From NCBI GenBank assembly GCA_017538105.1, contig JAFYJN010000032.1, positions 62,001 through 126,000 of the forward strand: DNA of 64,000 nt. The letters run 5' to 3'. This stretch comes from Prevotella sp. GTDB taxonomy: Bacteria; Bacteroidota; Bacteroidia; Bacteroidales; Bacteroidaceae. Made by a program: the position numbers and the translations under genes. Each line of letters starts with the position of its first letter. Position 1 is the stretch's first letter. A model generated the notes under the pieces. That model ran no database searches, was not told the origin of the DNA, and was given only the letters and a program-made list of their open reading frames with translations. Positions 1-58,355 of this stretch are shown here, piece by piece.

Positions 1-1
1 C

Positions 2-148
2 GTGCAGTACAACCCCAAGAAACTGGTCCGTCAGCTCGAGGTATGGGTAGCCAAGAGTGTCAAGCAGGGAAAAATCACCCTGGAAGAGGGCAAAGAGTTC
101 CTCTCCAATTACCGTTCCGGCCTCTACGGATATACGTATTTGGAGTAA
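2..148 (+). CDS. speA: C-terminal end of biosynthetic arginine decarboxylase (partial)
   Basis: The window opens inside an open frame of 48 codons ending at TAA 146-148. The readable C-terminus runs from VQYNPKKLVRQLEVWV to GLYGYTYLE. This tail resembles the last residues of Bacteroidetes SpeA-type arginine decarboxylases, which convert arginine to agmatine for polyamine synthesis. In Bacteroides relatives, as I recall, speA lies just before argB and an ECF sigma gene, and that order is seen here. Only the tail is visible, so the call rests on tail similarity and gene order. A GC-rich hairpin repeat begins 3 nt after the stop. Confidence 0.65.
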   Translation: MQYNPKKLVRQLEVWVAKSVKQGKITLEEGKEFLSNYRSGLYGYTYLE

Positions 149-151
149 AAG

Positions 152-305
152 AAACCCACCCTGGCCCTCCCAAAGGGAGGGGATAAACACCCACCCTAAC
201 ACGATACCCACCCTAACCCTCCCAAAGGGAGGGGATGGAAAAGAAACCCACCCTGACACGATACCCACCCTAACCCTCCCAAAGGGAGGGAATGGAAAAG
301 ATACC
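152..305 (+). repeat. Tandem GC-rich hairpin repeats, left flank of the DUF559 gene
   Basis: There are several copies of a module reading ACCCACCCT, a short spacer, then CCCTCCCAAAGGGAGGG, a perfect 7-bp stem with an AAA loop. Full cores start near 152, 204 and 262, and truncated ACCCACC modules near 187 and 245. The last two full units repeat with a 58-bp period. The block begins just after the speA stop. Its orientation is opposite to that of the copies at 738-817, so the intervening DUF559 coding region is bracketed by inverted copies. Confidence 0.9.
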
Positions 306-313
306 ATTTAATT

Positions 314-1576
314 ATGAAAAAAGGTTACGAGACAACTGATGCCACAACATATCATCTTCTGCTTGAAAAAGCAAAAGAAAATAGGAATAATCCAACAGCA
401 GCAGAAAAGCATCTATGGAGATATCTCAAAGGTAACCTACTTGGGGCTCATTTTCGACAGCAACATCCTATCTATGGGTTCATTCCGGATTTTGTTTGTC
501 TCCAACAACAATTAATAATAGAAATCGATGGTGGGTATCATCTTGACGGTGAACAACCAGAAAAAGACGAAGAACGTACCCAATGGTTGAAAAGTCAAGG
601 TTATAGAGTTCTTCGTTTTACAAATGAAGAAGTTCTTCAAGAAACAGAAGCTGTAATCACAAAAATAAAAGAAGCCTTGAACAATAATAATATTAATCCA
701 CAGTCTGGCAACTCCCTCCCCCAGTCTAACTCTAACAACTCCCTCCCTTGGGGAGGGGATGGGGTGGGTAATCCACAGTCTGGTAAGCCCCTCCCTTGGG
801 GAGGGGATGGGGTGGGTATCACTATCGTTAAGGTGGGTGGTGCCATTGTGGAAGATGAGCGGCAACTCAGTATGCTGCTCGATAACTTCAGTGCCATTCC
901 CGGACGGAAAGTGCTGATTCACGGTGGTGGCAGACGCGCCACGCAGGTGGCCTCGCAGTTGGGTATCGAGAGCCAGATGGTCAATGGCCGTCGCATCACC
1001 GACGAGAAAATGCTCAATGTGGTGACGATGGTCTATGGCGGACTGGTGAACAAACAGCTTGTGGCCCGTCTGCAGGCACATGGTGTGAATGCCCTCGGAC
1101 TGACGGGTGCCGACATGGATATCGTCCGCTCACACCGCCGGCCGGTGAAAGATGTGGACTACGGCTTTGTGGGCGATGTGGACAAGGTGGACGGAGAGCG
1201 ATTGGCAGCACTCCTTGAGGCGGGTATCACACCCGTACTCGCTCCCCTCACGCACGATGGCAACGGCACCATCCTCAACACCAATGCCGACACCATCGCC
1301 TCAGTGGCTGCACAAGCCCTTGCTCCTTTCTATGAGGTGACCCTCATCTACAGCTTCGAGAAACCCGGCGTTCTGCGCGACCCCGACGATGACTCATCAG
1401 TCATCCCCCATATCACCCGTACCGACTTCGACCGCTACGTGGCCGACGGCACCATCTCTGGCGGCATGATTCCCAAGATAGAGAATGCCCTCGCCGCCGT
1501 GGAGGCGGGCGTGCGCCGCGTCATCATCACCCTTGCCACCGCCATCGACGGAGAGCATGGCACGGTGATAGAGTGA
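314..1576 (+). CDS. argB: DUF559 endonuclease-like domain fused in frame to acetylglutamate kinase
   Basis: The 420-aa frame holds two unrelated proteins. Residues 1-122 are a complete DUF559 (Vsr/PDDEXK-like) domain with FRQQHPI, PDFVC, the conserved IEIDGGYH and GYRVLRFTNEEVL. Residues 128-166 are translated GC-rich repeats (SLPWGGDGVG-like). Residues 167-420 are ArgB, with IVKVGG, HGGGRRA, NGRRITDEKM, LTGAD, LNTNADT and GGMIPKI. ArgB phosphorylates N-acetylglutamate, the second step of arginine synthesis. ArgB's usual first few codons are missing and are replaced by repeat sequence. An in-frame GTG at 812-814, inside the repeat and after a GGAGG-like run, could restart translation and give a normal-length 254-aa kinase. 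Whether cells make the fusion, separate ArgB, or both cannot be told from sequence. ArgB identity is certain. Confidence 0.88.
   Translation: MKKGYETTDATTYHLLLEKAKENRNNPTAAEKHLWRYLKGNLLGAHFRQQHPIYGFIPDFVCLQQQLIIEIDGGYHLDGEQPEKDEERTQWLKSQGYRVLRFTNEEVLQETEAVITKIKEALNNNNINPQSGNSLPQSNSNNSLPWGGDGVGNPQSGKPLPWGGDGVGITIVKVGGAIVEDERQLSMLLDNFSAIPGRKVLIHGGGRRATQVASQLGIESQMVNGRRITDEKMLNVVTMVYGGLVNKQLVARLQAHGVNALGLTGADMDIVRSHRRPVKDVDYGFVGDVDKVDGERLAALLEAGITPVLAPLTHDGNGTILNTNADTIASVAAQALAPFYEVTLIYSFEKPGVLRDPDDDSSVIPHITRTDFDRYVADGTISGGMIPKIENALAAVEAGVRRVIITLATAIDGEHGTVIE
695..820 (-). repeat. GC-rich hairpin repeats, right flank of the DUF559 domain, translated
   Basis: Two units begin AATCCACAGTCTGG (695 and 770) and carry CCCTCCCTTGGGGAGGGG-type hairpins followed by ATGGGGTGGGT. 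This is the reverse orientation of the block at 152-305. The repeats are read through in frame and form the linker of the DUF559-ArgB fusion. The right edge GGTGGGTATC is the same edge found at the dprA and parE stop codons. Confidence 0.88.
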
Positions 1577-23684: not shown

Positions 23685-23848
23685 GAAGTGAGAGGTGAGG
23701 GGTGAGAGATATGCAAGGGGCAAGGAGCAAGGGGCAAGGAGCAAGAGATATGCCAGCAGGGTAATGGCTTAACTCCTTAACTTCTTAACTACTGTCGTTT
23801 GCTCGCTTGGGACTCCCCTCCCTAGGGGAGGGGTCGGGGGTGGGTATC
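23685..23848 (+). repeat. Composite repeat block between dusB and dprA
   Basis: In order: GTGAGAGGTGAGGGGTGAGAG (23688-23708), GGGGCAAGGAGCAAG copies (23716-23745), a 46-bp segment from GAGATATGCCAGC to CTTCTTAACT (23745-23790), and a hairpin repeat CCCCTCCCTAGGGGAGGGG with GGTGGGTATC edge (23816-23848). The 46-bp segment recurs inverted at 25035-25088 on the other side of dprA. The last bases TC of the final repeat are part of the dprA stop codon. Confidence 0.9.
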
Positions 23849-25034: not shown

Positions 25035-25180
25035 AGTTAAGAAGTTAAGGAGTTAAGGAGTTAAGCCATTACCCCGCTGGCATATCTCTCACCCCTCACC
25101 TCTCACCCCTTAACGCACCCTCCCTTGGGGAGGGCCGGGGTGGGTATTCATGTCCCTTTGGGAGGGTCGGGGTGGGTACT
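25035..25180 (-). repeat. Composite repeat block downstream of the thioesterase gene, inverted partner of 23745-23790
   Basis: AGTTAAG to TATCTC (25035-25088) is the reverse complement of the segment at 23745-23790, with one extra GGAGTTAA unit. Next come CTCACCCCTCACCTCTCACC (25087-25107) and two hairpin repeats ending GGTGGGTATT (25144 region) and GGTGGGTACT (25180). The last copy stops 5 bp from the thioesterase stop codon. Confidence 0.88.
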
Positions 25181-26897: not shown

Positions 26898-26930
26898 TAA
26901 ACCCACCCCGACCCTCCCCAAGGGAGGGCA
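26898..26930 (+). repeat. Single hairpin repeat between divergent DUF2851 and dapB
   Basis: AAACCCACCCCGACCCTCCC with the pairing AGGGAGGG half. Unlike most copies it is not at a gene 3' end; it lies in the shared 5' region of two divergent genes. Confidence 0.85.
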
Positions 26931-27866: not shown

Positions 27867-27945
27867 GAATACCCACCCCGGTCCTCCCAAAGGGAGGGAG
27901 TTAAGGAATACCCACCCCAACCCTCCCAAGGGAGGGAGTTAAGGA
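27855..27945 (+). repeat. Hairpin repeats at the dapB 3' end
   Basis: ACCCACCCATAG encodes the dapB terminus. Two full copies follow (cores from 27870 and from about 27910), each ending GGGAGGGAGTTAAGGAAT. Orientation follows dapB transcription. Confidence 0.88.
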
Positions 27946-48404: not shown

Positions 48405-50372
48405 TTGAAGACATTTGAAGAACTGGGCGTGTGCGAACCGATACGTCGCGCCATCGAAGAAATGGGTTTCGTACAGCCCATGCCCGTACAAGAAGAAGTG
48501 ATCCCCTACCTGCTGGGCACACGTAACGATGTGATAGCCCTGGCACAGACCGGCACGGGCAAGACCGCCGCCTTTGGCATCCCCCTGCTGCAACGCATCG
48601 ACACCGCACAGAACACCACACAGGCCATCATCCTCGCCCCCACGCGTGAACTGTGCCTGCAGATTACCGACGACATGAAAGATTATGCCCGCTACATGGA
48701 GGGCATCCGCATCGTGGCGGTATATGGCGGCACATCCATCGTCAACCAGATCAATGCCCTGCGCAAAGGGGTGCAGATCATCGTGGCCACCCCGGGCCGC
48801 CTCATCGACCTGATGAACCGTGGCGTGGCGAAACTCGACGAGGTACATAACGTGGTGCTCGACGAGGCCGACGAGATGCTTAACATGGGCTTCTCGGAGA
48901 GCATTGACGAGATACTCAAGGGAGTGCCCGAAGAACGCAACACGCTGCTGTTCTCGGCCACCATGAGCCGCGAGATAGAAGCCATCGCGAAGAACTACCT
49001 CCACGACCACAAGGAAATCGTGGTGGGCAGCCGCAACGAAGGGGCGGAAAACGTGAACCATATCTACTATATGGTACATGCCAAAGACAAATACCTGGCA
49101 CTGAAACGTATCGTTGACTTCCACCCGCGCATCTTCGCCATCATCTTCTGCCGCACGAAGGTGGAGACGCAGGAGATAGCCGACAAACTGATTCACGACG
49201 GTTACAACGCCGAGTCGCTGCACGGCGACCTGTCGCAGCAGCAGCGTGACCTGACGATGCAGAAATTCCGCCAGCACCTCACCCAACTGCTCGTGGCCAC
49301 TGATGTGGCAGCACGCGGTCTCGACGTGGACGACCTGACACACGTCATCAACTACGGACTGCCCGACGACATCGAGAGCTACACCCACCGCAGTGGCCGC
49401 ACGGGCCGCGCCGGGAAGAAGGGCACATCCATCTCCATCGTACACTCACGTGAGAAACATAAGATACGGGCCATTGAGAAAGAGATAGGCAAACAGTTTG
49501 TGGAAGGGGATATTCCCTCGCCACGCGAGATTTGCACCAAACAACTCTACAAGGTGATGGACCAGATAGAGAAGGTGGACGTGAACGAGGAGGAGATAGC
49601 CCCCTTCATGGACGACATCAACCGCCACTTCTTCTACCTCGAGAAAGAAGACCTCATCAAGAAAATCGTGTCGTTGGAGTTTGGCAAGTTCCTTGCCTAC
49701 TATGCCGACGCGCCAGAGATTTTGAAGCCCGACACGTCAAAGAAAGGGGCAAAGGGCAAGGAGCAAGGAGCAAAGGGCAAAGGACAAGGAGGCGACGGCC
49801 GTCAGCGCGGTTCACGCAAGGCGGAAAAAGGCTACCGCCGACTGTTCATCAACCTGGGCAAGGCCGACGGTTTCTACCCCAGCGAGGTGATGCAGTTCAT
49901 CAACAAACATGTGGAAGGTCGCCAAGCAGTGGGACATATCGACCTATTGAGCACCATCTCCTATATCGAAGTGCCCGAGAAAGATGCCCAGCGCGTGATG
50001 CGCGCCCTCGACGGCACCACCTACAAAGGACGTAGCGTGCGCTGTAATGAGGCGGACGATAAAGGGGCAAGGAGCAAGGAGCAAGGGGCAAGAGGCAGGA
50101 AGGCTGAGGGCAGGAAGCAGAAGGCCGAGGGCAAGGCGATGAAAGGTGAGGGATTCAGTTCCTACGAGAAGAAGTCGAAGCGCACCAGTCCCACGACAGA
50201 GAAACCCTCACGTCGCGGTCAGCGTGGTGCCGCCCGCATGTACGCTCCCGTCAAGGAGAGCGGCAAGAAAGACGACTGGCGCCAGTTCTTCCAAGGTCAC
50301 GACGTACAACTCGTTGGTGAAGAGCCCGACTTCTCCGAAGAAGGATGGGCAAGGAGGAAGCCGAAGAAGTAA
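48405..50372 (+). CDS. DEAD-box ATP-dependent RNA helicase with repeat-derived basic insertions
   Basis: The 655-aa protein starts at TTG 48405 (MKTFEELGV in relatives); the frame upstream to 48333 lies in the terminator and promoter. Helicase motifs are AQTGTGKTAA (I), PTRELCLQ (Ia), TPGRL (Ib), DEADEM (II), LFSATM (III) and HRSGRTGRAG (VI). A C-terminal DbpA-like RNA-binding domain follows (GYRRLFINLGKADGFYPSEV). It unwinds structured RNA, perhaps in ribosome assembly or decay. Two stretches (KKGAKGKEQGAKGKGQGGDG and KGARSKEQGARGRKAEGRK) translate the GGGGCAAGGAGCAAG repeat and add positive charge around the RNA-binding domain. Confidence 0.92.
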   Translation: MKTFEELGVCEPIRRAIEEMGFVQPMPVQEEVIPYLLGTRNDVIALAQTGTGKTAAFGIPLLQRIDTAQNTTQAIILAPTRELCLQITDDMKDYARYMEGIRIVAVYGGTSIVNQINALRKGVQIIVATPGRLIDLMNRGVAKLDEVHNVVLDEADEMLNMGFSESIDEILKGVPEERNTLLFSATMSREIEAIAKNYLHDHKEIVVGSRNEGAENVNHIYYMVHAKDKYLALKRIVDFHPRIFAIIFCRTKVETQEIADKLIHDGYNAESLHGDLSQQQRDLTMQKFRQHLTQLLVATDVAARGLDVDDLTHVINYGLPDDIESYTHRSGRTGRAGKKGTSISIVHSREKHKIRAIEKEIGKQFVEGDIPSPREICTKQLYKVMDQIEKVDVNEEEIAPFMDDINRHFFYLEKEDLIKKIVSLEFGKFLAYYADAPEILKPDTSKKGAKGKEQGAKGKGQGGDGRQRGSRKAEKGYRRLFINLGKADGFYPSEVMQFINKHVEGRQAVGHIDLLSTISYIEVPEKDAQRVMRALDGTTYKGRSVRCNEADDKGARSKEQGARGRKAEGRKQKAEGKAMKGEGFSSYEKKSKRTSPTTEKPSRRGQRGAARMYAPVKESGKKDDWRQFFQGHDVQLVGEEPDFSEEGWARRKPKK

Positions 50373-50754
50373 TACCTAACACCCACCCCGGCCCTCCCCA
50401 AGGGGGATACCCACCCCGACCCTCCCAAAGGGAGGGAGCGGATACCCACCCCTTTCCCCTCCCCAAGGGAGGGGGAAAAGGAAGTTAGAAGAAGTTAGAG
50501 GAAGTTAGAAGACAATAGCTTTGAAGGGTAAAAGGAGCTCCACCCCCGTCCCCTCCCGAGGGAGGGGAGATGAATAGCAGGGAAGGGCAAAAAACAAGGG
50601 GCAAGAGATTTTTTGGATTTCTCTTGCCCCTTGCCACTTTTTGCTTCTGGCATTTCTCTCACCCCTCACCTCTCACCCCTTAACGCTCCCTCCCTTTGGG
50701 AGGGCCGGGGTGGGTTTTTCTTTCCCCCTCCCTTGGGGAGGGCCGGGGTGGGTT
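50373..50754 (+). repeat. Dense repeat field between convergent DEAD-box and S41 genes
   Basis: No gene is present. After the DEAD-box stop come three ACCCACCCC-type hairpin repeats (50381-50470), GGAAGTTAGAAGAAGTTAG words (50481-50510) and CCCCTCCCGAGGGAGGGG (50550-50567). A long hairpin follows in which CAAGGGGCAAGAGA (50595-50608) pairs with TCTCTTGCCCCTTG (50620-50633). Then come CTCACCCCTCACCTCTCACC (50657-50677) and two hairpin repeats in the opposite orientation (50686-50754) that touch the S41 stop. Each half faces its own gene's 3' end. Confidence 0.9.
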
Positions 50755-52326
50755 TTACCCTTCCTGAATCAATTCCAACGCTTTCTGTACGATATCGTTA
50801 TACTTATTGATGATCTGGAAATATTCGTTCATGTCCCAGATATCGCGGGCGATAAGTGCTTTCAGTTGGGTGCGCAGATATGGAACGGTGCGCCGCAACT
50901 CATCATCGTCCTTGGGCTCGATACCCTGTTTCTTCGCCTCGGCCAAGATGTCGTCGACCAACGACTGGGGCACCTCAAACTGACTGTTGAACGCCTCAAA
51001 AGTGGAATAGCGTTTCTTTAGCTCCTTGCGGTGCTGGTCCACATAACGCAGGTTGGCGTTGATAATCAAGTTCTTCGCCGAAATCTTCCTATGATAGCGC
51101 GTATATTTGGTGGTGTCGAGCGGCACGAAATAGTCGGGCATGATACCACCGCCGCCATATACCGTGCGATGTTTTTTCAAGGTGTAGAACTTCAGCGAGT
51201 CGGCGAAATGGATGCTGTCGGGGTTCGTCAGCTCACCATGCTTGAGACGGTTCTCGAAATCCATCTCATAGTCCTTGAGGTCGCCTTTCTTATACGGTTT
51301 CTGTATGCACCGTCCCGAAGGAGTATAATAATGGGCGATGGTAAGACGTATCATCGACCCATCGGAGAAATCTATCGGACGCTGCACCAGTCCCTTGCCA
51401 AAAGAACGGCGTCCCACCACGATGCCGCGGTCCTGATCCTGTATGGCGCCGGCGAGAATCTCCGATGCCGAGGCGGACAATTCGTTCATGAGCACATAGA
51501 GATGGAGATCGCCCAACTGTCCACGGCCATTGGCGTTGTATGTCTGTCGTGGATTGCTCCGTCCCTCGGTATATACCACCAAGTCACCACGCTGCAGGAA
51601 CTCATTGGCTATCTGCACCGCCGTCTGGAGGTAACCGCCGCCATTGTCCTGCAAGTCGAGAATCAGGGTGTTCATTCCCTGCTCGCGCAACTTCGCCACC
51701 GCCGACATGAACTCGTTGTAGGTGTTCTGCGCGAACTGCTCGATGCGCACATAGCCCACGCCCGGACGAATCATGTGCGAGGCATGGATGGAATAGACGG
51801 GAATCTTGTCGCGGGTGACCATGAATGTGAGCGGATTGCCCTGGCCGGGGCGCACCACGCCTAACTTCACCGTCGTTCCCTTTGGTCCACGCAGACGTTT
51901 CATCATGTCCTCTTTTTTCATCTTCACCCCCGCGATGGCCGTGTCGTTCACCGACACGATGCGGTCGCCGGCCACGATGCCCACTTTCTCAGAGGGACCG
52001 TTGACTACGGGTTGGATCACCATGAGCGTGTCTTCCACCACGTTGAACTGCACGCCTATGCCCTCAAAATTGCCTTGCAGGGGTTCGGTGAGTGCCTTCA
52101 CCTCATCGGGAGTGGAATACACGGAATGGGGATCCAGTTCCTTGAGCATGCCCCGTATGGCATCCTCCACGAGTTTGTTGTCATCTACCTTGTCCACATA
52201 CAGGTTGCTGACCGCCATCTGTGCCATGCGGAACTTTGTGAGGGGGTTGGGGGCTTCTACAACCAACTGTGCCCTTGTCATGGTGGCGGTAAAGAGCAGT
52301 GCCGCCAATGCTATATATTTTTTCAT
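50755..52326 (-). CDS. S41-family C-terminal processing peptidase (CtpA-like)
   Basis: The 523-aa exported protease has a signal ending MTRAQ, an N-terminal helical region, a PDZ domain at about 75-165 (NFEGIGVQFNVVEDTLMV, AGDRIVSVNDTAIAG) and the S41 domain. The latter has LDLQDNGGGYLQTAV, the nucleophile region NELSASASEILAGAIQD and a lysine in RRSFGKGLVQRP. It degrades or trims exported proteins in the envelope. The stop lies 0-2 bp from a GC-rich hairpin repeat in gene-sense orientation. Confidence 0.93.
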   Translation of the reverse strand: MKKYIALAALLFTATMTRAQLVVEAPNPLTKFRMAQMAVSNLYVDKVDDNKLVEDAIRGMLKELDPHSVYSTPDEVKALTEPLQGNFEGIGVQFNVVEDTLMVIQPVVNGPSEKVGIVAGDRIVSVNDTAIAGVKMKKEDMMKRLRGPKGTTVKLGVVRPGQGNPLTFMVTRDKIPVYSIHASHMIRPGVGYVRIEQFAQNTYNEFMSAVAKLREQGMNTLILDLQDNGGGYLQTAVQIANEFLQRGDLVVYTEGRSNPRQTYNANGRGQLGDLHLYVLMNELSASASEILAGAIQDQDRGIVVGRRSFGKGLVQRPIDFSDGSMIRLTIAHYYTPSGRCIQKPYKKGDLKDYEMDFENRLKHGELTNPDSIHFADSLKFYTLKKHRTVYGGGGIMPDYFVPLDTTKYTRYHRKISAKNLIINANLRYVDQHRKELKKRYSTFEAFNSQFEVPQSLVDDILAEAKKQGIEPKDDDELRRTVPYLRTQLKALIARDIWDMNEYFQIINKYNDIVQKALELIQEG

Positions 52327-52512: not shown

Positions 52513-52620
52513 TTCTCCCTCCCTTGGGGAGGGCTGGGGTGGGTATCATTCTCCCTCCCTTGGGGAGGGTTAGGGGTGGGTATCACACCCCCTCCCTTGG
52601 GGAGGGCTGGGGTGGGTATC
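52513..52620 (-). repeat. Three tandem hairpin repeats at the parE 3' end
   Basis: Copies at about 52513-52547, 52548-52583 and 52586-52620 each carry CCCTCCCTTGGGGAGGG and end in GGTGGGTATC. The last TC belongs to the parE stop codon (TCA, 52619-52621). Read from parE, the repeats follow the stop directly. Confidence 0.9.
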
Positions 52621-56232: not shown

Positions 56233-57612
56233 TTATAATCTTTTAATCTTCTTATTAACGCCCCCTCCCTTTGGGAGGGCCGGGGTGGGTTTCCACTCTC
56301 CCTCCCTTTGGGAGGGCCGGGGTGGGTTTCCATTCTCCCTCCCTTTGGGAGGGTCGGGGTGGGTTTCCATTCTCCCTCCCTTGGGGAGGGCTAGGGGTGG
56401 GTATTTCCCCCCTAAGAACAAAAATTGTTTCCTTTGGAAGGTGGTGGCGAAGATATAGTGTTGTCCTCCGTCGCGCAGATGCAATTTCTTCCGCAACTGG
56501 TCTGTGGACAGCGGGAAATTGCGGGTGGTGACGTTCGCCTGGTCAATGTCCCGTAAGGCCTCAGCATATTCCCGTTTATTCAGTGTGAACACCCGTTGCA
56601 CGTGGAACATTCGTCCAGGAAAGTCCTCCAGCATTTCTTCACTCACGAAAAGATGGCTGTTGCTCTCTATGGCCTTCACGCCGTAGCGTTGCGTGAGCAT
56701 GGCGAAGCATCCGCTTTTCATGATGGCCGGACAAGGTTCGTAGAGGAAAGTGATGTGGCGCAGTTCTTCCTCATCGCCTATCAGGGCCGGTGTGCCCTGC
56801 CGTTCGTCGGGGGAGATGTCGATGACCTGTTCCCCATGCACGCAAACCAAACGCATCTCACGCGACCCCATTGATGGCACGACCACGAACAGCAACTCCT
56901 TGCACTCGTTGCCCACATCTACGATATGCACCTCCGCCACGCTGCCACCGGCCTCCTCCATCTCGCTCACCGCCTGGTGCCAGTCAAGCATCGGCGACAG
57001 TTTGACCATCACGGCCCCCGCCTTCTCCAGCAGCGACGGCATCATCGGCAAGATATTGGGCGTGCAGTCGGCGATGCCCCATGTGCGTCCTCCGTGACTG
57101 TCACGACGGGCGGGGTCGAGGAAGACGACATCGGCAGTGGGCAACCGCCGCCACACCTCCTCGGCATCCCCCTGCACCACCTCGGTATGTGTCAACCCCA
57201 GCAATGGCAGGTTGTGGCGCGCCAGTCCACAGAGTGTATCCTGTCGCTCCACAAAATAAGAACGGTCGAAAAAAGGAGCCATAAACGAGTGGTCCACACC
57301 CAGACCACCCGTCAAGTCGACGAAGGTGGTGAGCCGGCCTTCCTGTTGCATGGTTGTCAACAGCCGTCTCACCACCTCACCTTTGTAACGTGCCGCCTCT
57401 TCCGATGAACACTGCTCCATCGACAGGTGCGGCGGATAGATAATCCCCTCGGTGGCCGCCCAGCGAGGCACCTTGTGGCGTGCCCGCTGCCAGCCATCCA
57501 CCTGACCCACGACCCATGGCATGTCCATGTCGGGATATCTGCCCGACTGTAAAGCCAAGAGGTGCACATCGTCAAGGCGATGTGCACGCACAAATTCCGG
57601 GTCGCGCCGCAT
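56233..57612 (-). CDS. THUMP-like-domain class I SAM-dependent methyltransferase with repeat-derived tail
   Basis: The 459-aa protein has SAM-binding motif I FVDLTGGLGVDHSFMAPFF, VVQGDAEEVW and motif IV VVFLDPARRDSHGGRTW. A C-terminal THUMP-like domain follows (ESNSHLFVSEEML, NVTTRNFPLSTDQLRKKL, YIFATTF). It probably methylates RNA or a protein; the target is unknown. From about residue 402 the sequence is a translation of four tandem hairpin repeats, each read in a shifted frame (PPLALPKGG, HPDPPKGRE, PPRPSQREG, PTPALPKGG), ending NKKIKRL. Relatives should lack this tail of about 55 residues. Confidence 0.87.
   Translation of the reverse strand: MRRDPEFVRAHRLDDVHLLALQSGRYPDMDMPWVVGQVDGWQRARHKVPRWAATEGIIYPPHLSMEQCSSEEAARYKGEVVRRLLTTMQQEGRLTTFVDLTGGLGVDHSFMAPFFDRSYFVERQDTLCGLARHNLPLLGLTHTEVVQGDAEEVWRRLPTADVVFLDPARRDSHGGRTWGIADCTPNILPMMPSLLEKAGAVMVKLSPMLDWHQAVSEMEEAGGSVAEVHIVDVGNECKELLFVVVPSMGSREMRLVCVHGEQVIDISPDERQGTPALIGDEEELRHITFLYEPCPAIMKSGCFAMLTQRYGVKAIESNSHLFVSEEMLEDFPGRMFHVQRVFTLNKREYAEALRDIDQANVTTRNFPLSTDQLRKKLHLRDGGQHYIFATTFQRKQFLFLGGKYPPLALPKGGRMETHPDPPKGRENGNPPRPSQREGEWKPTPALPKGGGVNKKIKRL
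56261..56404 (-). repeat. Four tandem hairpin repeats inside the methyltransferase 3' end
   Basis: There are four copies with a period of about 36 bp, each CCCTCCC(TTT/TTGGGG)AGGG followed by GGTGGGT. They lie within the open frame of the methyltransferase. Read from the gene, orientation is the usual ACCCACCCC-first. Confidence 0.92.
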
Positions 57613-58227: not shown

Positions 58228-58355
58228 AACCCACCCCGGCCCTCCCAAAGGGAGGGAGTTGAGTGTTGAATGTTGAGTGTTGAATGTTGAATGAATTTTC
58301 TCTCCCCCTCGGGGGAGTTAGTGGGGGGCTCCTCGGGGGAGTTAGTGGGGGGCTT
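58228..58355 (+). repeat. Composite repeat block, left arm around the TPM/lipoprotein pair
   Basis: In order: ACCCACCCCGGCCCTCCC with its pairing half (58228-58256), GTTGAGTGTTGAATGTTG words (58258-58290), and two CCCCCTCGGGGGAGTTAGTG units with GGGGGGCT (58303-58354). The same three parts occur in reverse order and opposite strand at 59993-60152. The right edge touches the TPM stop codon. Confidence 0.9.

Follow-up and report, generated by a model that had tools for sequence, protein, structure and literature searches.

A DUF559 nuclease gene between inverted hairpin repeats, a probable single-gene mobile element in Prevotella

The element between speA and argB

The window (the whole stretch of Prevotella sp. 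DNA that was analysed, 64,000 nucleotides) opens on the 3' end of a gene (1..148, +, stop codon TAA at 146-148) that we take to be speA, for arginine decarboxylase; a 50-aa piece of this speA-like gene found no match in a Pfam search, and its C-terminal sequence also stands before argB in relatives. Between it and argB lie, in order, three hairpin units beginning with ACCCACCC (154..181, with its tail outward; 206..233, with a 7-bp stem; and 263..290; all +), a DUF559 nuclease gene (314..709, +, with the domain at 365-679 and the frame open further on) and two inverted units (741..769 and 789..817, both -). A unit consists of a tail and a 7-bp stem (CCCTCCC-AAA-GGGAGGG), and the second left unit folds as single-stranded DNA at -7.4 kcal/mol (z = -1.65). 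The sequence-only reading had described a DUF559 gene bracketed by inverted copies of a hairpin repeat, which is confirmed by these three units on the left and two on the right; the arms were also recovered among the inverted repeat pairs computed for the window. The whole element, from ACCCACCC to GGGTGGGT, occupies 154..817 (+, 664 bp), in agreement with the junctions at empty sites and at the ispF copies described below.

The same reading had let the DUF559 frame end before the right-hand repeats, and here it was wrong: the frame runs through both right-hand units, which lie within it, and into argB (818..1576, +; presumably acetylglutamate kinase), forming a single open frame of 420 aa (314-1576) with an AA_kinase match (PF00696, E = 8.1e-38). 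The usual ATG and first codons are missing from this argB; in relatives with an empty site, an ATG followed by a few codons stands at this place. For the part of the frame that belongs to the element, the Pfam search for a known transposase family returned only DUF559 and a sub-threshold MTES_1575.

The nuclease and its relatives

DUF559 genes are common (PF04480 was found in 121 of 200 genus genomes), yet Pfam lists their function as unknown. The frame from 314 matches DUF559 (PF04480) with E = 6.4e-32 over residues 18-122, spanning profile positions 5-108 of 109. Ten residues (E31, D59, E70, D72, G73, H76, D85, R88, R101 and N104) were invariant in 62 of 62 sequences, and likewise constant in all 40 of a phylum-wide set; E31, D59, E70, D72, H76 and D85 among them are of catalytic type, and E31, D59, D72, H76 and D85, which we take to be the columns of the EDxHD motif, form an EDxHD-type core. 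Among solved structures, a profile search placed 3hrl first (E = 3.2e-32) and also matched the 'mobile intron protein' 3r3p (E = 1.6e-6), presumably the structure of I-Bth0305I, with two restriction-enzyme entries next (E = 0.009); a homing-endonuclease profile was matched weakly as well (E = 2e-4). Values of dN/dS were 0.14, 0.06, 0.26, 0.00 and 0.18 in five of the six computable close pairs and 0.70 in the sixth (L103/L112, with few changes), while five more distant pairs were saturated. These sequence comparisons support purifying selection on the nuclease and the retention of its catalytic-type residues.

Against the Vsr model TIGR00632, the window protein scored 21.5 bits, far under the cut-off of 97.85, and two others that were scanned did not match at all. 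In the portions of the publications available to us, a DUF559 gene is placed in the EDxHD homing-endonuclease family of Taylor et al. 2011 (PMC9403480), that family is itself described (PMC3943268), and Caulobacter VsrA, a Vsr-like DUF559 protein, is studied (PMC12907096). The literature searched, mostly outside subscription journals and partly in excerpt, yielded neither a link between DUF559 and inverted hairpin repeats nor a description of an insertion element built around a DUF559-type enzyme.

Ends, empty sites and insertion sites

We found argB in 76 of 100 genus genomes and read 30 of its loci, 14 of which had the speA-like end within about 200 bp before argB. By eye, the C-rich hairpin was absent from 13 of 14 DUF559-less speA/argB loci; in G051 (L060) hairpins stand at the speA/argB site without DUF559. 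The insertion is present in a sister genome (G019, argB 94% identical) with a different number of units: the alignment shows G019 to be without a 54-bp stretch carrying the first left unit (154..181), and between the two sister genomes (G000/G019) hairpin units have been gained or lost, with no clean target duplication.

At ispF (found in 189 of 200 genomes, with 30 loci read, four of them with DUF559), 24 of the 26 DUF559-less loci have no such hairpin, and the other two have one (L385, found by script, and L382, by eye). In our set of 60 genus DUF559 loci, eight have DUF559 fused in frame with ispF. Seven of the eight have their left end, ACCCACC, 0-16 nt past the apparent upstream stop; in all eight, the first ispF codons adjoin the right end, GGTGGGT, directly or nearly so, and the usual ATG is not seen. 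Two of these eight loci (L080 and L097) also have a solo hairpin unit in frame inside IspF, at the identical place.

The only other DUF559 gene of the window's own genome lies between two genes that we take to be korA and korB, and is flanked by an inverted hairpin of another kind (38 nt, 84% complementary) from which the first codons of korB are read. The korA/korB junction is a hot spot within an operon: depending on the species, it is occupied by DUF559, by a gene like S23 or one like GxxExxY (both presumed resemblances), or by no insert (L002, L065, L240, L244, L246, L255, L250, L252 and L258). Similarly, G191 and G046 differ at one spot whose flanks are 96 and 93% identical: one genome has a DUF559 element there, the other an S23-type gene (PF05635 match) with its own inverted repeats.

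Most relatives examined are without the insert at the orthologous site. No clear target-site duplication was found by eye in comparisons with relatives about 70-96% identical, and one site (G077/G038) had no clean empty allele, its flanks matching different G038 contigs. That the DUF559 gene and both arms move together as one insertion unit is well supported. The mobile unit suggested by the sequence-only reading is accordingly borne out in its defined ends and empty sites; its further suggestion, that the nuclease is linked to the spread of the repeats, goes beyond these observations and is one that we infer.

Inverted flanks of DUF559 genes in the genus

To each locus we assigned a flank score, that of the best inverted match of its left 350 bp to its right 350 bp, with sliding positions and other ORFs as controls. 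The 60 genus loci were 60 of the first 64 PF04480 matches by E-value, a top-scoring set and not a random draw, taken with up to 8 kb on either side; the four left out were on short contigs or near contig ends. A score of at least 34, a threshold picked after a first look at 31 of 32 loci (seven thresholds were tabulated), was reached by 51 of the 60 DUF559 genes, vs. 48 of 14,453 positions and eight of 510 control ORFs (three of 199 for control ORFs up to 750 bp), and a score of at least 50 by 38 of 60, vs. 21 of 14,453 and four of 510. Our second measure, which requires a G+C hairpin on each side within 220 bp and no match between left and right, gave 40 of 60 vs. 18 of 14,799, and 54 of the 60 loci passed one measure or the other. 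A chance origin was rejected on the controls of the two measures, and the enrichment of inverted flanking repeats at DUF559 genes of the genus, which had been proposed as a check on the window locus, is found.

Three of the eight positive control genes (L064, L080 and L101) are ordinary genes between C-rich hairpins, and the rest lie between other kinds of repeat; two of the three small positive control ORFs resemble, as we take it, S23 and GxxExxY genes. Seven of the nine low-scoring DUF559 loci (L081, L084, L090, L098, L099, L107 and L108) are flanked left and right by hairpins whose arms have diverged, another (L089) has several GC repeats, and the last (L075) has two hairpins on one side only. 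Tails mostly point outward: the left arm is C-rich over its outer 15 nt at 45 of the 51 positive loci. Tails-outward pairs 300-900 bp apart enclosed DUF559 in 30 of 32 cases, among loci that had been chosen for DUF559. The median distance from outer edge to outer edge was 543 bp (460-847).

In-frame life inside host genes

The DUF559 frame continues into a host gene at 16 of the 60 genus loci, and open frames of at least 500 aa from stop to stop were found at 55 of 170 loci. In ten fused frames analysed with Pfam, DUF559 lies within LeuRS (two cases), a class I synthetase (which its motifs lead us to take for IleRS), ValRS, RecG, B12 methionine synthase (MetH), an ABC ATPase and an AAA helicase, or is joined to guanylate kinase and to IspF (YgbB). 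No Hint splicing domain was found by Pfam in these ten proteins (E ≤ 1e-5), and an intein was rejected on that ground.

DUF559 loci sit at many unrelated sites. LeuRS was the host at 12 of 73 named loci (seven of 80 having been dropped), host labels in this set being assumed from peptide motifs familiar to us. For 15 of 23 host-labelled copies the nearest relative shared the host gene (in shuffles, 2.1 on average and 8 at most), which indicates that inheritance or one-site homing is common and that there have been some separate arrivals.

Range beyond the genus

The named loci came from the best 80 of at least 571 relatives, nearly all Bacteroidota; in this set inverted arms were found at 38 of 77 loci vs. 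32 of 11,170 positions, and hairpins on both sides at 30 of 77 vs. five of 11,586. PF04480 was present in 170 of 296 genomes of a phylum sample, where inverted arms were seen at 13 of 29 loci (a measure without controls there) and hairpins on both sides at six of 29 vs. 0 of 162. Long in-frame fusions had hairpins on both sides in 10 of 53 cases vs. 0 of 6,362.

Nine loci outside the phylum were read, eight of 39 plasmid-collection records and L166. Inverted-flank scores were 74 in Sphingomonas, 37 in Deinococcus and 34 in Picosynechococcus (0 of 206 controls each), and 29 in a gammaproteobacterial MAG (0 of 296 controls); those in Synechocystis (27) and Azospirillum (28) were not above their own controls, and two E. 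coli loci and one Sinorhizobium locus were not bracketed. The bracketed layout recurs in Bacteroidota and at single loci of other phyla, and fades away from the genus.

The E. coli gene ycjD, which lies between sapF and fabI, encodes a DUF559 protein and is present in 3,364 of 5,426 genomes (matches over at least 80% of the query). It has C-rich hairpin repeats on the downstream side only (L346), and in one strain it is broken by IS1. Two ycjD-less E. coli regions hold other genes, and so offer no empty site.

Hairpin repeats across the window and genomes

The hairpin repeat is scattered through the window, as the first description of this DNA had it: there are 22 tail-plus-hairpin units on the two strands, 16 outside and six inside ORFs of at least 100 aa, and none in any of five mononucleotide shuffles of the window scanned on one strand. 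Genome-wide, the palindrome CCCTCCCnnnGGGAGGG has 156 strict copies (reversed control, 0). Solo units lie at 23816..23845 (-), 25118..25145 (-), 26901..26928 (+) and 58229..58256 (+), and tandem arrays of two at 27871..27936 (+), of three at 52517..52617 (-) and of four at 56263..56402 (-), the last inside the end of an open frame (56233-57612, -). Such solo arms could be decayed elements. A cluster at 50409..50753 has two + units followed by two - units, with tails outward and no DUF559 between; the region 50350-50760 is a mosaic of C-rich hairpins, an AGTT-type stretch and inverted hairpins.

A G-quadruplex motif occurred on one strand in 24 of 51 arms (from loci L063-L122), vs. 24 of 10,772 background windows, which leaves room for recognition of a shape other than the hairpin; single-strand folds of four arm stretches were only 1.1-2.1 sd better than shuffles.

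Counts of hairpin cores in other genomes rest on small samples of each genome, both DUF559-bearing and DUF559-less. DUF559-bearing genomes yielded 14 cores in 324 kb, all from nine of 62 genomes, and a second such sample, drawn from better assembled genomes, one core in 400 kb from 12 genomes, one of them (G061) with only weak DUF559 matches; a DUF559 gene therefore does not guarantee many repeats. DUF559-less genomes yielded none in 126 kb (24 genomes) and none in 400 kb (11 genomes), and four genomes with only weak DUF559 matches none in 24 kb. Repeat-rich genomes without DUF559, which the sequence-only reading had named as evidence against a link, were not seen in these 526 kb of DUF559-less sequence.

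Arms and nuclease diversify together

Across 51 loci, protein distance and arm distance were correlated (Mantel r = 0.580, 0 of 2000 permutations), also when only pairs from different genomes at a protein distance of at least 0.2 were taken (r = 0.549, 0 of 2000 permutations). In 12 same-genome pairs, arm distances were 0.38-0.83 at protein distances of 0.42-0.63, showing that the host genome does not set the arm. Any unit whose parts travel together should show such co-divergence, which alone is no proof of recognition.

Further copies of an arm were denser in its own genome than in other genomes (7.57 vs. 1.73 per 100 kb, Wilcoxon P = 0.0015), the own-genome density being the higher for 24 of the 51 arms and the lower for 20; for 26 of the 51, the own-genome sequence examined held no further copy. 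DNA searches with two element regions returned 122 matches in G038, 112 in G077, 33 in G046 and 60 in G191; these counts include flanks, and many places are counted once per arm.

Other gene families with their own repeats

PF05635 (S23) was found in 52 of 60 genomes and PF13366 (PDDEXK_3/GxxExxY) in 41 of 60. Inverted flanks scoring at least 34 were present at 16 of 24 S23 loci and 19 of 25 PF13366 loci (11 of 60 loci were too short), vs. four of 144 and three of 150 nearby control positions, respectively. The repeats at S23 and PDDEXK_3 loci consist of tandem AGTT-like and CACGGATT-like words with a GC content of 0.37-0.38 and almost no stems, as compared with 0.68 for DUF559 arms; stems of at least 6 were found in 40 of 51 DUF559, one of 16 S23 and none of 19 PDDEXK_3 cases. 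S23 and PDDEXK_3 loci share genomes and sites with DUF559. Even within a single genome, and at a single site, repeat type thus tracks gene family; this favours a functional pairing over an effect of site or genome, and the idea that hairpins are a property of the site or of the genome was rejected.

The S23-type genes (PF05635, L286-L315) are small, of four-helix-bundle type, with up to 15 matches per genome, and appear as a second gene-plus-repeat class; the GxxExxY-type genes (PF13366, L316-L345), small and nuclease-like, with up to eight matches per genome and CACGGATT-type repeats, appear as a third.

Interpretation

We consider it fairly probable that the locus holds a mobile element of a single gene, about 0.5-0.8 kb long and bounded by terminal inverted repeats, in which an EDxHD/Vsr-like DUF559 nuclease lies between outward-tailed hairpin arms and spreads them. 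The nuclease would recognise its own hairpin and tail ends and cut there, the two inverted arms probably being bridged by a nuclease dimer; repair of the break may then copy the whole element or a single arm to new places, and the solo hairpins, which we infer to be spread by the nuclease as well, would be by-products of arm-only copying. Because the arms can be read without stops, copies at start codons or inside vital genes would survive as in-frame fusions, and would then be hard to delete.

Homing into repeats would reverse these roles, an independent hairpin family being the target that DUF559 cuts and into which its gene is copied by break repair. The solved relative 3r3p, a mobile-intron protein, and the weak homing-endonuclease profile match fit this account, as do the hairpins without DUF559 at speA/argB (L060) and ispF (L385, L382); we nevertheless think it unlikely, given that most DUF559-less sites at both places have no hairpin, and that the arms form an inverted pair, each matching the other and both matching the nuclease, a pattern that would not arise by insertion into a single hairpin. 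The nuclease might instead move no repeats at all and be a passenger at spots where a host process, such as recombination or replication, draws small elements. Sharing of spots by DUF559, S23 or PDDEXK_3 in different genomes (korA/korB; G191 vs. G046) is what such hot spots would produce, and in Legionella pneumophila three repeated segments with a transposase and a DUF559 gene are recombination hot spots according to the part of that report available to us (PMC12308824). The tracking of repeat type with gene family and the conserved nuclease residues make this account quite improbable.

That the hairpins are ordinary REPs moved by an HUH tyrosine transposase, with DUF559 as a bystander, is suggested by a layout that equals that of REPtrons, as far as the accessible part of the source describes them (PMC3733652), and is nonetheless very improbable: Y1_Tnp (PF01797) had no match in the window's own genome, by a search that was positive in five of 14 control genomes, and only 13 of 51 arms, extended by 6 nt at either end, contained a GTAG/CGTC tag or its complement. 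RAYT-driven REPs were rejected for this genome on the first of these grounds. The original comparison, of a layout like that of RAYTs and REPs built on an unrelated enzyme, has held up, the DUF559 gene being bracketed by dispersed hairpins in a genome with no Y1/HUH gene. Chance, or a regulatory or terminator hairpin common to small genes, might be read from the location of most window units outside ORFs, and can hardly be the explanation when so few small control ORFs are flanked, two of them, as we take it, resembling S23 and GxxExxY genes; it is refuted by inverted flanks being far rarer at unrelated genes than at DUF559 genes.

If the link that we favour between nuclease and repeats is true, it provides an enzyme for a repeat family without a transposase and an extra nuclease chemistry among DNA movers, and explains the extra nuclease domain in vital enzymes such as LeuRS, IleRS, RecG and IspF. 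Only tentatively, though we find it quite possible, might DUF559 elements form a new class of insertion element moved by a Vsr/EDxHD nuclease without a transposase, which, with S23 and PDDEXK_3/GxxExxY, would be among three or more parallel gene-plus-repeat classes, each spreading its own repeat grammar and competing for sites, that together would explain much of the unexplained dispersed repeat of Bacteroidota and beyond.

The element has points in common with several known systems. With REPs and RAYTs (REPtrons, TIRtrons) it shares the plan of one enzyme gene between inverted palindromic repeats dispersed in the genome, and insertions inside genes have been reported there too, in the portion of the source at hand (PMC3733652); it differs from them in its enzyme, which is EDxHD/Vsr-like and not an HUH tyrosine transposase, in the lack of a consistent GTAG/CGTC tag, and in that one genome can contain several DUF559 copies whose arms differ. 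Homology to 3r3p and the invariant E, D, H and D liken it to EDxHD homing endonucleases such as I-Bth0305I, whereas it lies outside introns and inteins, at many unrelated sites and within bounds of dispersed hairpins, and the window protein, about 130 residues long up to the arms, lacks the additional DNA-binding region described for I-Bth0305I. The weak TIGR00632 match recalls Vsr and the DUF559 protein VsrA of Caulobacter, although the score is far under the Vsr cut-off. Rickettsia palindromic elements are likewise palindromic inserts tolerated in frame inside protein genes; to our knowledge, they carry no nuclease gene. Unlike insertion sequences, the DUF559 element has no known transposase and showed no evident target duplication; like insertion sequences with MITEs, it has terminal inverted repeats (ACCCACCC...GGGTGGGT) and gene-less relatives.
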